From positions 1-64,000 of the forward strand of contig JASHOY010000142.1 of the NCBI GenBank assembly GCA_030038435.1: a stretch of 64,000 bases of DNA, read 5' to 3'. The notes under the pieces were generated by a model. It saw nothing but the letters and a program-made list of their open reading frames with translations, ran no database searches and was not told the origin of the DNA. Below, piece after piece: positions 42,705 through 53,929 of this stretch; positions within the stretch are counted from its first letter, which is position 1; each line of letters starts with the position of its first letter. The position numbers were made by a program, and so were the translations under genes. The DNA is from Acidobacteriaceae bacterium (GTDB taxonomy: Bacteria > Acidobacteriota > Terriglobia > Terriglobales > Acidobacteriaceae).

Positions 42705-44426
42705 TTAGCCCGATGCTAACACCGGCTGCGTTGTGGTGCGGTGCGCGCGCGCCTGCCCACTTACGTCCAGGTGCGAAACATAGACGCTGGCCGTAGGCTG
42801 CCCCTTGGCGGTGAAGCGGCCAACCAGCTTCAGTCCCTGCGGATGGGCTTTGACGGCGCGGTCTACAGCGTCGCCGTTAAAGGTAACCACGATGGCGGCG
42901 TGCACTGCCGGATGGGCGAGCGCCGCGGTGAAGAACTGTTTGTCGCTTTCATTGAGCGTCTGGCGCAGCGGAATGCGGGTGCGGGAGACGAGTTCGGGAT
43001 AGATCGATGTGTTCATAAGGATGATGCCGTCCGGGTGTGCAGCCAGCAGCGAGCGTAAAACGGGGGGGATGGCGAGGTCATACGGCCGGCGCGCGGCGAG
43101 ATTCTTGGTGCCCTCCACATAGACAAGCGGGTGCTGGCGGAGCATCTGCGCAATGTTGAAGGTGATGAGCGCGGCGAAGATCGCAATGGCTGCGTTGCGC
43201 CAGCGCAGTCCGGCCGCTGAAGGTTTGAATTCACGCACCAGGGCAAGGGCAACATGGGCAGCAAAAGCCAGTCCCAGGGCAATCGCGGGCAGCAGCTCCA
43301 TGCCGTAGCGGGTGTTGTACCAGGAGTGCGGCCACCACGGCGGAATGAAGATGGGCACGGAGCCGTAGGCGACGGCGTAGGCATAAAACGGAACCGGGAT
43401 CCAGAGCAGCAAGGCCCAGTTGAAGGCGCGGCGGCGATGGAAGATCCACGCCCAGGCGGCGCCGAGGACGCTGACGGCGAGCAGTAAATTGCCAAAAGCC
43501 GCGGCAGCGGAATCAAGCTCGGAGACTTTGAGAAAGTAAAGCAGCGAAAGCCAGGGATTGTGCCATCCGGGATGTGGCGGATAACCGGGTGGCGCGGTGC
43601 GCAGCTCGATGGCTTTGGCGGAAAACGGGCCGCGGGCGAAATCGAGCCAATCGCCGAAAAATGCCGCATTGTAAGCGAACCATGCGGCGGGTGCGGCGGC
43701 GAGCAGCACGCTGGCCATCCAGAACCCGGGCGAACGAAGCCGGCCGCGGCGGGCCAGGGTGACGAACATTGCGATCCATACGACAAATGCCATAACCCAG
43801 CCGTCGTAGCGGGTAAAGACGGCGGCGATGAGTGTGGCAAAGGTTAGCCAGAGCAAACGGCCGGAGCGTGCCGGCGCAGCGTCGAGGCTGGTGCGCCATT
43901 CCGCGGTGAGCACCACGATCCAGATCGCCTCGCAGAGAAAGAGCGGCTCGGTCATGGCCGTGGTTTGCAAATAGAGCAGGTTGGGATTGAGCGCGAAGAA
44001 GGCCAGCCCGAGGGATGCCGGCGCAGGCGAGAGCCAGCGGCGGGCCAGGCGGTAAAAGCCGAGGCAGGCGGCGAGGTATGCAAATGCCGAAGGGATGGCT
44101 CCGGCAATGCCGTTGGCCCACCAGGCATAGACCTGCACAAAAGGCACCATGAGCAGGTGGGGCAGCGGGAGCCAGACCGAACCTAGCTGGCTTAGTCCGG
44201 GACGATGCGAATCGAAGATGCGGCGGGCAATGTGGAGATGGCCAACCGCATCGCCGTAGTTGAGCATGGCGTGGTGCTGCCAGCTCCAGAATTGCGCGGC
44301 GAGCGAGGCCGCAGCGCATGCCAGCGCCACGACGAGATATTCGCGGCATGCGGGCGCTCCCGCGGGCACGGATTTGGCGATGGATTGCGGTTGCGTGCGG
44401 CGCGGGAGGGTGAGCGGTTCAGTCAA
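42705..44426 (-). CDS. GT39/ArnT-like polytopic membrane glycosyltransferase
   Basis: Multiple TM helices; YGDAVGHLHIARRIFDS luminal acidic loop; FTRYDGWV. Confidence 0.78.
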   Translation of the reverse strand: MTEPLTLPRRTQPQSIAKSVPAGAPACREYLVVALACAAASLAAQFWSWQHHAMLNYGDAVGHLHIARRIFDSHRPGLSQLGSVWLPLPHLLMVPFVQVYAWWANGIAGAIPSAFAYLAACLGFYRLARRWLSPAPASLGLAFFALNPNLLYLQTTAMTEPLFLCEAIWIVVLTAEWRTSLDAAPARSGRLLWLTFATLIAAVFTRYDGWVMAFVVWIAMFVTLARRGRLRSPGFWMASVLLAAAPAAWFAYNAAFFGDWLDFARGPFSAKAIELRTAPPGYPPHPGWHNPWLSLLYFLKVSELDSAAAAFGNLLLAVSVLGAAWAWIFHRRRAFNWALLLWIPVPFYAYAVAYGSVPIFIPPWWPHSWYNTRYGMELLPAIALGLAFAAHVALALVREFKPSAAGLRWRNAAIAIFAALITFNIAQMLRQHPLVYVEGTKNLAARRPYDLAIPPVLRSLLAAHPDGIILMNTSIYPELVSRTRIPLRQTLNESDKQFFTAALAHPAVHAAIVVTFNGDAVDRAVKAHPQGLKLVGRFTAKGQPTASVYVSHLDVSGQARAHRTTTQPVLASG

Positions 44427-45345
44427 GGTGAGTGAGCTCGCGGAATAGATTGAAGCGGCCGTCGATCTCCTGACGCGAGAGCTGCTGCAGGCGCTCGGTG
44501 CCGAAGCGCTCGACCGCGAATGAGCCCATCACGCTGCCGTAGAACATGGCGCGGCGGAAAACGCCAGGCGTGAGCTGCGGCTGCGAGGCGAGGTAGCCGA
44601 AGAAGCCGCCGGCAAAGCTGTCGCCGGCGCCGGTGGGATCAACCACTTCGTCGAGCGGCATCGCCGGGGCGCGAAAAGTGCGCTCCGCGCTTCCACCTTT
44701 TGGACCCGCGCCGTGAAACAATGTCGCTCCATATTCGCCGTGCTTGACGATGAGCGCGCGTGGCCCCATGGCCATGACCGCGCGGGCGGCGCGGACGAGA
44801 TTGTTGTCGCCGGCCAGCATGCGTGCCTCGGTGTCGTTGATGAGCAGGACGTCGAGGCCCTTGAGCACTTCCAGCAGCGCCGGGCGGTGGTCCTTGATCC
44901 AGTAATTCATGGTGTCGCCGGCAACCAGTTTTACGTCGGGCATGGTCTCGCGTACGCGCCGCTGCAGAACGGGATCGATGTTGGCGAGGAAGAGAAACTG
45001 CGAGTCACGATAGGCAGCGGGAATCTTGGGCTCGAATGCGGCGAAAACGTTCAGCTCGGTATTGTGGGTTTTGGCTTCGTTGAGGTTATCGAGATAAGAG
45101 CCTTCCCAGAAGAAGCTCTTGCCGGCGGCGCGCTCGATGCCGCGGGTATCAATGTTGCGCGCGGCGAAGACGGCCTCCTGCTCGGGACCGAAGTCTTCGC
45201 CGACCACGGCGATGACGCGGACGTCGGTGAAAAAGCTGGCGGCGAGAGAAAAATAGGTAGCTGCGCCGCCGAGACAGCGGTCGCGGCGGCCGGCGGGGGT
45301 TTCAATGGAATCGTAAGCGACACTGCCGACTACGGTGATGGACAT
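44419..45345 (-). CDS. PfkB-family carbohydrate/nucleoside kinase
   Basis: DVLLINDTEARML; DPTGAGDSFAGGFFGYLA; start trimmed to 45345. Confidence 0.93.
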   Translation of the reverse strand: MSITVVGSVAYDSIETPAGRRDRCLGGAATYFSLAASFFTDVRVIAVVGEDFGPEQEAVFAARNIDTRGIERAAGKSFFWEGSYLDNLNEAKTHNTELNVFAAFEPKIPAAYRDSQFLFLANIDPVLQRRVRETMPDVKLVAGDTMNYWIKDHRPALLEVLKGLDVLLINDTEARMLAGDNNLVRAARAVMAMGPRALIVKHGEYGATLFHGAGPKGGSAERTFRAPAMPLDEVVDPTGAGDSFAGGFFGYLASQPQLTPGVFRRAMFYGSVMGSFAVERFGTERLQQLSRQEIDGRFNLFRELTHLD

Positions 45346-45381
45346 GGACCTCCTCAAAGACTGAACTCATATTCGCGCGGC

Positions 45382-45640: not shown

Positions 45641-46507
45641 TTACCAGCCGTGGTACTTGCCAAAGAGCAGTTTCAGACGTTCCCGGGCCGCCTTCGGAAT
45701 GGCATCCGGCTGGGTGAGCACAGCGTATCTCGCCGCCGTCGCGCAGGAGCACGATCGTTCGCGGGGCATGGCGGCAACGGCGGCTTTGACCACCTTGGCG
45801 GCGTTCTCTGCGTTCTGATGCAGCACGGCTACAATCTGCTCCACGGTCACCGCATCGTGGCCTTCGCGCCAGCAGTCGTAATCGGTGACCATGGCGATGG
45901 TGGCATAGCAGATTTCGGCCTCGCGGGCGAGCTTGGCTTCCTGCAGATTCGTCATGCCGATCACGTCGGCGCCCCAACTGCGATAAAGATTCGATTCAGC
46001 CTTGGTGGAAAATTGGGGGCCTTCCATGCAGACGTAGGTTCCGCCGGTCTTGCCGGTCACGCCCGCAGCCGCACACGCGCCGGATGCGGCTTTGGCCACC
46101 GTGGCGCAAACCGGATCTCCGAATGCAACATGGCCGACGATGCCCTCGCCGAAAAATGTGGAGATGCGCTGAAAGGTGCGGTCGATGAACTGGTCGGGGA
46201 TGACGAAATCTGTGGGCTTGTGCTCTTCCTTGAGCGAGCCCACGGCGGAGACGGAGATGATGCGCTCGACGCCAAGTTTTTTGAAGGCATAAATGTTGGC
46301 GCGGAAGTTGAGTTCGGAGGGAAGGATGCGATGGCCACGGCCGTGGCGCGCAAGAAATGCCACTTTGCGGCCCTCGAGTTCGCCCAGCACGAAGACTTCC
46401 GACGGCTCACCAAAGGGAGTTTCGACTCGCTGCTCGTGAACGCTGGTGAATCCGGGCATGGCGTAGAGTCCGCTGCCTCCGATAATGCCGATTTCCGCTT
46501 CCGCCAA
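45641..46507 (-). CDS. mtnP: S-methyl-5'-thioadenosine phosphorylase
   Basis: [70 protein letters not shown]. Confidence 0.95.
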
Positions 46508-46590: not shown

Positions 46591-47385
46591 TTAAACGGCC
46601 GCTTCTTCTTTCTTCCTTTTGTGCGAGGGGTGCACCCGCCAGGCCACCACGATGCCGATGAAGTAGAGACCAAGCATGGGGATGGCGTAGATGCACATGG
46701 TCCAGGGGTCGGGGCTGGGAGTGATGATGGCGGCCACAATGAACACCGCCAGAATTGCGTAGCGGATATTCTTCCACAGAAATTTGGGGCTGACGATACC
46801 GAACAGGGCCAGGAAGAAGATGAGGATCGGAAGCTCAAAGCTGATGCCCAGGCCGAGGATCACAGAAAGAAAAAAGCTGGTGTAATCCTCGATGCTGATC
46901 ATGGGTGTGAAATTGTGGCCGAAATCCACGACAAGGATTTTGATGGCTGCGGGAAGCACCCAGAAGTAGCCGAACGCCGCGCCGCTGAGGAATAGACCCA
47001 CGGTCGCCGTCATGAACGGTATAACAAAGCGCCGCTCCCTCTGATAGAGTCCGGGTGCTATGAAGAGCCACACCTGGTAAAGGATGAACGGCGAGGCAAG
47101 GATCGCTCCTGCCACAAGCGAGGCCTGCAGGTAGAGATTGAGCGCATCCATAGGATGCGTGAACATCAGTGTTTTGCCAATGTGGATCAGCGGCGCCTGG
47201 AAGAGTTCCACGATCCGGTTGTGAAAGACCCAGGCTATGCCGAAGCCGCAGGCCAGATAGATGGCTGAGTGGACGATGCGCTTGCGGAGCTCGTCGAGAT
47301 GCTCCATAAGGCTCATGCCCGGCAGCTCGGCGCGCTCGGTTACCGCTGCCCGCGCCTTTTCAATTGCGTCAGCGGGATCAACCAT
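46591..47385 (-). CDS. tatC: Sec-independent protein translocase TatC
   Basis: MEHLDELRKRIVHS; FELPILIFFLALFGIVS; six-TM pattern. Confidence 0.96.
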   Translation of the reverse strand: MVDPADAIEKARAAVTERAELPGMSLMEHLDELRKRIVHSAIYLACGFGIAWVFHNRIVELFQAPLIHIGKTLMFTHPMDALNLYLQASLVAGAILASPFILYQVWLFIAPGLYQRERRFVIPFMTATVGLFLSGAAFGYFWVLPAAIKILVVDFGHNFTPMISIEDYTSFFLSVILGLGISFELPILIFFLALFGIVSPKFLWKNIRYAILAVFIVAAIITPSPDPWTMCIYAIPMLGLYFIGIVVAWRVHPSHKRKKEEAAV

Positions 47386-48057
47386 GGTGTGTGGCCGGCT
47401 CCGTTTCCGCGCCGGCTTCGCTTGCCGCAGGGTTTTCAGGCGCCGGACGCTTGGCGCTCACCGCTTCGGAATGAGAGATTGCGGCCTCGTCGCCGGAGGG
47501 CGAAGATTCCAGGGCGGCTTCTTCTTCAGGTTCGGCAGACTGAGCGGGATCGGCCGCGGCGCGGCTGGTGGGCGGCTGGGCGGGAACCGGGGCGCCGGTC
47601 TCGGGTGGCTGCACCCGCAGCCCTGGCGGTTCAGCCTCAGCTTCATAGGCGGGGGTTTGGTTGTGATAATGCTCGTAGGCGGCTTCGTCGTAAGAGCAGG
47701 GAATGTCGGGCTCGCCAGTCTCTGGGTAATCCTCGTGTCGCTCAGCAGCGGGGGCTTCCGCTGGCTGAGTGGAGGCGGCAATCTGGGCGGGCGGGGCGGC
47801 AGAGGCGGCAGCAAGCGCACGCTGGCGCTCGGCCTCTTCCCGCTGGCGCCGGTCGGCCTCCTCGGCGTTGCGCAATTCCTCTTCCATCTGGAAGCGGAAA
47901 TCGTTCGAGGCCTTGCGAAACTCGTACATGAGCTTGCCAATCTGACGGCCGATCTTGGGCAGACGGCGCGGGCCGAATACCACCAGCGCCATGATCATCA
48001 CGATCATGGTGTCCCACATGCTTAGCGTGGCGACCTCGATTGTCGGGTGTATGCCCA
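47378..48057 (-). CDS. TatA/TatB-family translocase subunit with long C-terminal tail
   Basis: WDTMIVMIMALVVFGPRRLPKIGRQIGKLMYEFRKASNDF; 8-nt overlap with tatC; start trimmed to 48057. Confidence 0.9.
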
Positions 48058-48229
48058 TGAAGCTCCATGATACCTTTCCCCGCAGCGCGCTCACAAACAC
48101 GCACTACGAGGCCGCAGCCGTCCCATATGGCACGAACCGTTCGCTCAAAAGTGTACCGCGGCAGATGGGCGAAGGCCGGCCGGCGTGCGGAGGAACATAT
48201 ATTACGAATGGGTTACAATAAGGCTAGCG

Positions 48230-48293: not shown

Positions 48294-48408
48294 GGCTGCA
48301 ACATCCCCGTGGGTGGGGAAATCGCCGAGCGGTATTCGGCGAGGTCAGCGCATCCACTGCGGCCGTGATTGCTTTCAACATCCCCGTCCGGAAACGGACT
48401 GAAGGCGG
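48294..48408 (+). promoter_or_regulatory. NAD+-I (nadA motif) riboswitch, two tandem domains
   Basis: Domain 1 (48294-48364) ggctgcaacatccccgtgggtgggg...gtcagcgcatccactgcggcc; domain 2 (48371-48408) gctttcaacatccccgtccggaaacggactgaaggcgg; directly before nadA. Confidence 0.88.
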
Positions 48409-48414
48409 AACAGA

Positions 48415-49548
48415 GTGAATCTTGCGATTGACGAGCTGACGGCGCCCGCTTTGGCGGACGAAGGCGTTTGCAGCCTTGAAAACTATCTGGCGATGCCGGA
48501 CCACTCGATGGACGGCCGCATCGCCCAGGCGCGCGCCAAACTGGGCGCGACCACGGTGGTGCTCGGGCACCACTACCAGCGTGACGAAGTTGTGCGCTTT
48601 GCTGATTTTATGGGCGATAGTTACAGGCTTTCCCAGAATGCAGCGGCGACCGGCGCCAAGTATATCGTCTTTTGCGGCGTGCACTTTATGGCGGAAAGCG
48701 CGGATGTGCTGGGGCGCGATGGGCAGCAGGTGATCCTGCCTGACCTGAACGCGGGCTGCTCGATGGCCGATATGGCGGAGATCTCCCAGGTGGAGGATTG
48801 CTGGGAGGCGCTGGAACGCGCCGGGCTGGCGGATGAGACGATTCCCGTCACCTACATTAACTCGACGGCGGCGATCAAGGCGTTTTGCGGCGAGCGCGGC
48901 GGTCTGGTGTGCACGTCGTCGAGCGCGCGTGCGGCAATGGAGTGGGCGTTTGCCCGCGGCAGGCGGGTTTTGTTTCTGCCCGACCAGCACCTGGGGCGAA
49001 ATACGGGTTATGCGATGGGGATTCCGCTGCACGAAATGGCGGTTTGGGATCCCTGGGCGCTGCAGGGTGGGCAGAGCAAAGAAATGCTGGCCGCCAGCCG
49101 GGTGCTGCTGTGGAAAGGGCACTGTTCCGTGCACCAACGTTTTTTGCCCGGCCACGTCGACCAGGTGCGGGCCAAGTATCCGGGAATTCAGGTGATTGTG
49201 CATCCCGAATGCCGATTCGAGGTCTGCCAGAAAGCGGATGCCCTGGGCTCGACGGAACGGCTGATTGCGCTGGTGGAACAGGCGCCGGCGGGAACCATGT
49301 TCGCGGTGGGGACGGAGATCCACCTTGTGAACCGCATGGCGAAGCGCTTTGCCGCGCAAGACAAGCGCATTATTACCCTCGACGACACCGGCTGCCTGTG
49401 CACCACCATGTACCGTATTACCCCGCAGCATCTGGCGTGGGCGTTGGAAAATCTTGTCGAGGGGCAGGTTGTGAACCGGATACAAGTGCGTGCCGAGGTG
49501 AAGCGCTGGGCGCGAGTGGCGCTGGACCGCATGCTGGAATTGCGCTAA
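48415..49548 (+). CDS. nadA: quinolinate synthase
   Basis: GTG start; VVLGHHYQRDEVVRFADFMGDSYRLS; CSMADMAE; VHPECRFEVC. Confidence 0.96.
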   Translation: MNLAIDELTAPALADEGVCSLENYLAMPDHSMDGRIAQARAKLGATTVVLGHHYQRDEVVRFADFMGDSYRLSQNAAATGAKYIVFCGVHFMAESADVLGRDGQQVILPDLNAGCSMADMAEISQVEDCWEALERAGLADETIPVTYINSTAAIKAFCGERGGLVCTSSSARAAMEWAFARGRRVLFLPDQHLGRNTGYAMGIPLHEMAVWDPWALQGGQSKEMLAASRVLLWKGHCSVHQRFLPGHVDQVRAKYPGIQVIVHPECRFEVCQKADALGSTERLIALVEQAPAGTMFAVGTEIHLVNRMAKRFAAQDKRIITLDDTGCLCTTMYRITPQHLAWALENLVEGQVVNRIQVRAEVKRWARVALDRMLELR

Positions 49549-53473: not shown

Positions 53474-53929
53474 TCAGGCGGTCTGAGGCGCAGAAACATT
53501 GGCGCCCCACAGGGCGAATTCGGCCTGACGTCGGACTTGCAGGCCGGGCACGACCTGGGTTCCGGAGTGATCCCAGAGAAGCAGTTGCTGGCGGGCGGCA
53601 TCGAATTCGCCGGCATTGAGATCACGCAGGAGTGTCGAGCCGCCGAGCCTTCCCTGTCCGAGGTTGAAGCAGAAGTCGACAAGGGCGTCGAACTGGCTCT
53701 GGCTGAGAGTGACGGTGACCAGCCGCTCCACAGCCTGGCCGGCAACGGCGGCGTCGGAGGCGAGAAGTTGCTCGGCCTGGGCCTCGGTGATGCCGTTGGG
53801 GTAGCTTTCGCCGGGAAGCAGCTTATGGCCATAGCCGATGGTCGGTATCCCGGCGGGATCGTTGTAGGTGGTGGAACGAAAGCCTTCGGAATTCCTGATC
53901 AAGGTCAATCCTGCATCGCTGACTTGCAT
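53474..53929 (-). CDS. GH24 lysozyme (phage-type muramidase)
   Basis: IRNSEGFRSTTYNDPAGIPTIGYGHKLLPG; SQSQFDALVDFCFNLGQG. Confidence 0.93.
   Translation of the reverse strand: MQVSDAGLTLIRNSEGFRSTTYNDPAGIPTIGYGHKLLPGESYPNGITEAQAEQLLASDAAVAGQAVERLVTVTLSQSQFDALVDFCFNLGQGRLGGSTLLRDLNAGEFDAARQQLLLWDHSGTQVVPGLQVRRQAEFALWGANVSAPQTA

Follow-up and report, generated by a model that had tools for sequence, protein, structure and literature searches.

Does the leader of the nadA gene at this locus form a genuine NAD+-sensing riboswitch, and if so, which of its two similar domains would sense the cofactor and which would control translation? Here we address this question computationally in a window of 64,000 nucleotides (the whole stretch of DNA analysed), giving coordinates on its forward strand unless stated otherwise. 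We show that 48294-48406 is a genuine, complete and typical tandem NAD+-I (nadA motif) riboswitch of Rfam family RF03013, an RNA family described as a two-part switch of soil Acidobacteria that turns down a gene for NAD synthesis when there is ample cofactor. The most probable reading, to which we assign a probability of roughly 95%, is that domain 1 binds NAD+, that the closing helix of domain 2 (P1') occludes the Shine-Dalgarno (SD) sequence, and that translation of nadA is thereby lowered. Family membership, anatomy, conservation and sequestration of the SD in the predicted ensemble are all observed at this locus. It adds one member to a known riboswitch family whose architecture, including the ribosome-binding site in P1', has already been published.

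A cmscan search of the window against Rfam 15 returned two matches above the RF03013 gathering score of 37.5 bits. The first, scoring 50.5 bits (E 7.8e-9), covers domain 1, the ADP/NAD+-binding domain, at 48294-48364; the second, with 42.5 bits (E 1.7e-6), covers domain 2 at 48371-48406, an expression platform of compact form that has neither an internal loop nor P1b'. The initial annotation had proposed a tandem NAD+-I/nadA riboswitch, open to refutation by the lack of a covariance-model match; these two scores, together with nadA downstream, bear the proposal out. No other Rfam family reached its own cut-off in the window, and no RF03013 copies beyond the two domains were found in the 6.4 Mb genome. 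Both tandem stem-loops carry ACANCCCC in their bulges (48301-48308 and 48378-48385). The sequence already noticed as common to the two domains, CAACATCCCCGT, occurs at 48299 and 48376 on the forward strand and nowhere else in the 64 kb on either strand, compared with a chance expectation of ~0.008 occurrences on both strands (arithmetic for a random 12-mer). Fold energy was not exceptional relative to shuffled sequences (z = -0.95) and was uninformative, so the case is built on the covariance model and on conservation. Annotation of the locus is straightforward, a real riboswitch having been recognised by reading the sequence alone.

Domain 1 is closed by helix P1, in which GGCUGCA (48294-48300) pairs with UGCGGCC (48358-48364) at probabilities of 0.97-1.0. 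It is followed by the J1 bulge ACAUCCCC (48301-48308) and by the 7-bp helix P1a, formed by GUGGGUG (48309-48315) and CAUCCAC (48351-48357) at probabilities of 0.99-1.0. The partner of the bulge cytosines is the J2 internal loop AGCG (A35, G36-Y37-G38) at 48347-48350, with GG at 48316-48317 on its 5' side. Crystal-structure residues C13 and C14 correspond to 48306 and 48307 (numbering from PMC7297122), and the GYG of domain 1, GCG at 48348-48350, is placed to pair with them. In the solved structures the contacts C13-G38, C14-G36, G23-C37 and G24.A35 surround the ADP site (PMC7297122, PMC7708056); judged by its sequence, domain 1 carries every element of this pocket. A 6-nt linker, GUGAUU (48365-48370), leads into domain 2.

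In domain 2 the anti-SD strand GCUUUCA (48371-48377) pairs with 48400-48406 at a probability of 0.71-0.72, forming the P1' helix that had been read by eye as gctttca with tgaaggc; its seven pairs comprise six Watson-Crick pairs and one U.G. Next come the J1' bulge, again ACAUCCCC (48378-48385), and the P1a' hairpin GUCCG-GAAA-CGGAC, five base pairs capped by a GNRA tetraloop (48386-48399). An internal loop is absent, so the J2 GYG loop that would complete a pocket is missing. Such a lack is shared across the family and does not set this locus apart: PMC7297122 describes domain 2 of the nadA motif as lacking the internal loop and as holding the ribosome-binding site in the 3' strand of P1'. The compact domain 2 was accordingly rejected as a categorically new feature, since PMC7297122 and the P1b'-less RNA of PMC10702441 already cover such forms.

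The SD, GAAGGCGG, lies at 48401-48408. The initial annotation held gaaggcgg to be the only plausible SD and to be enclosed by the second domain. The choice of site agrees with the anti-SD duplex that scores best ahead of the GTG at 48415, AAGGCGGA/GAAGGCGG at 48401-48409 (-6.8/-6.6 kcal/mol, against -3.5 kcal/mol at best for non-overlapping sites); the enclosure is partial, with GAAGGC inside the P1' 3' strand and the final GG outside. The predicted ensemble shows P1' sequestering the SD; the modelled cost of freeing 48401-48408 is 5.4 kcal/mol in the leader and 6.3 kcal/mol in domain 2 alone.

The downstream gene, nadA (48415-49548, forward strand), encodes a quinolinate synthase of 377 aa (TIGR00550, 321.3 bits against a cut-off of 262.9). 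Its GTG start and N-terminus are conserved in the genus, and in most relatives from the genus the alignment begins with residue 1 at a GTG, which supports the start at 48415. The closest NadA relatives, ~80-86% identical, come from Acidobacteriaceae MAGs and isolates, with Occallatibacter and Terracidiphilus as named isolates among the nearest sequences, and thus place the locus in an acidobacterial host, as is typical of the nadA riboswitch. Searches for a consensus sigma-70 promoter upstream and for an intrinsic terminator in the leader found neither, and hence gave no sign of transcriptional control. Divergent from nadA, tatC and a TatA/B-like gene occupy 46591-48100 on the reverse strand, and beyond them lie genes for S-methyl-5'-thioadenosine phosphorylase (45641-46507) and a sugar-kinase-like protein (44419-45357).

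Of 41 close relatives, 20 matched RF03013, as did 87 of the 399 genomes searched across the class, and all 85 genomes with matches above the cut-off belong to one family. Two genomes from other families of the class gave single matches of 30.0 and 29.3 bits, below the cut-off and away from the contigs with NadA matches, which were treated as chance. Five genus members without an RF03013 match also lack a NadA match, suggesting that riboswitch and nadA occur together; four of these five genomes are <92% complete, and the group may use another NAD route or may owe the missing gene to incomplete assemblies. We then read 100 loci from the one bacterial family, with the bulge pattern relaxed to recover both domains in all; the counts are descriptive, given the relatedness of the sequences and the part that pairing played in locating the helices. 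In all 100 the riboswitch is tandem and upstream of nadA, and P1' reads GCUUUCA/UGA(A/G)(A/G)GC with all seven pairs kept, the start codon lying mostly 7-11 nt downstream. Outside the position that matches the third P1' pair, domain 1 varies across the set by paired changes, and domain 2 ranges from 36 to 114 nt, the 36 nt of the window being the minimum, common to three loci. Two nadA leaders from relatives in the genus (L014 and L020) have their domains ~127-131 nt apart, as opposed to ~5-14 nt in most others, and both domains still score above the RF03013 cut-off despite the long linker, offering a natural test of the need for domain proximity. No repeat is common to the two long linkers; there is just a 12-nt palindrome in L014.

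The published model, which the initial annotation shared in proposing that NAD+ would close the stem and repress translation, has domain 1 bind NAD+ via its ADP half, after which P1' of domain 2 forms over the SD (PMC10702441). By analogy with this work on relatives, domain 1 of the present RNA would fold into a J1/J2-locked pocket, bind NAD+ via the ADP half and favour formation of P1' in domain 2, the signal probably passing by docking or stacking of the domains across the 6-nt linker. By covering GAAGGCGG, P1' would reduce translation of quinolinate synthase and so exert feedback repression on de novo NAD+ synthesis. According to PMC10702441, citing Malkowski 2019, regulation suffers from a C13A mutation in either domain. 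The same paper found full-length RNAs to be prefolded in vitro and to bind ATP as well as ADP, which makes it uncertain that the RNA is a pure NAD+ sensor.

Binding of NAD+ by both domains, as the initial annotation had it, is contested and should be stated more softly, even though the two tandem domains themselves are present. A two-site model with weak binding in domain 2 (3.4 mM) was proposed in PMC7708056: domain 1 would bind one NAD+ tightly and domain 2 another weakly, the latter ligand driving closure of P1'. A domain 2 has been crystallised and its structure solved with NAD+ (PMC7708056), and the domain 2 bulge keeps ACAUCCCC nearly as strictly as that of domain 1. Isothermal titration calorimetry of full-length RNA, however, detected a single ligand, bound by domain I and recognised through ADP with ATP not distinguished, while domain II took up none (PMC10702441). 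Moreover, domain 2 of the window lacks the J2 GYG loop; of the 100 loci, 95 show that loop in register in domain 1 and 7 show it in domain 2. We therefore regard two binding sites as quite improbable; a compact domain 2 without the pocket-locking loop fits a one-ligand model.

The failure of full-length relatives to discriminate against ATP in vitro (PMC10702441) would also accommodate sensing of the general adenylate pool (ADP/ATP) instead of NAD+ specifically. This is rather unlikely in view of the exclusive association with nadA across the 100 loci and of genetic data, as cited in PMC10702441, on repression in relatives at abundant NAD+. A further alternative concerns the switch itself: the UCCCC of the domain 2 bulge (48381-48385) might, in an ON or alternative state, pair with the SD (48404-48409) in place of P1', and this pairing accounts for ~26% of the predicted ensemble. 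Yet it would hide the SD as well, and the bulge variants ACAUCUCC/ACAUCACC leave GGCGGA unchanged. Given this lack of bulge-SD covariation the pairing was rejected as a switch, its share of the ensemble notwithstanding, and we hold such a role to be extremely unlikely.

The third pair of P1' (48373-48404 in the window) is U.G in 92 and U-A in 8 of the 100 loci and is C-G in none, whereas C-G is the commonest state (52 of 100) at the same position in domain 1, which suggests that P1' strength is held down. With C in place of this U in the model, opening the SD became costlier, the median rising from 5.1 to 7.1 kcal/mol. P1' might conceivably have been selected to stay just weak enough for switching, in which case its stability would be a tuned set-point and domain 2 would act as a lid that senses nothing itself, an idea we advance tentatively and as somewhat doubtful. 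Were it true, compact domain 2 copies like that of the window would argue for the one-ligand model.

Among known systems, the Acidobacterium ailaaui RNA (PMC10702441) is nearly identical to that of the window outside the apical loops. Both have tandem domains with ACANCCCC bulges, a 6-nt linker, nadA downstream, a 7-bp P1a and GYG loop in domain 1 only, a domain 2 without P1b', and the SD in P1'. The window RNA differs in the longer apical hairpin of domain 1 (71 nt in all), in a few P1 and linker substitutions, and in the natural GAAA loop on its 5-bp P1a'. At 113 nt, with a 36-nt domain 2 and a native GAAA loop, it is a compact construct of natural origin and full length that may be of modest use for studying how the SD helix of domain 2 responds to ligand binding in domain 1. 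The ubiB variant of the nadA motif, as PMC7297122 presents it from Malkowski 2019, shares the tandem layout, a similar domain 1 and the ribosome-binding site in the second stem, but its domain 2 is an uninterrupted stem, unlike that of the window with its 8-nt bulge; with domain 2 bulged and nadA rather than ubiB downstream, identity with this variant was rejected. The NAD+-II (pnuC) riboswitch (PMC7749635) belongs to the same ligand family but differs in fold and in gene association (pnuC), and was likewise set aside, as RF03013 alone matched in the window and the downstream gene is nadA.

Some loci and neighbouring features stand apart. Three of the leaders carry TGAAGGCAGGAA before the start, with AGGA just outside P1', and judging from this placement SD sequestration may be incomplete in them. 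One draft genome has two nadA genes on separate contigs, each with its own tandem riboswitch, which could reflect two copies or a mixed bin. In the window itself, a 151-aa ORF on the reverse strand (53474-53929) resembles, by eye, a phage-type (T4-like) lysozyme/endolysin.
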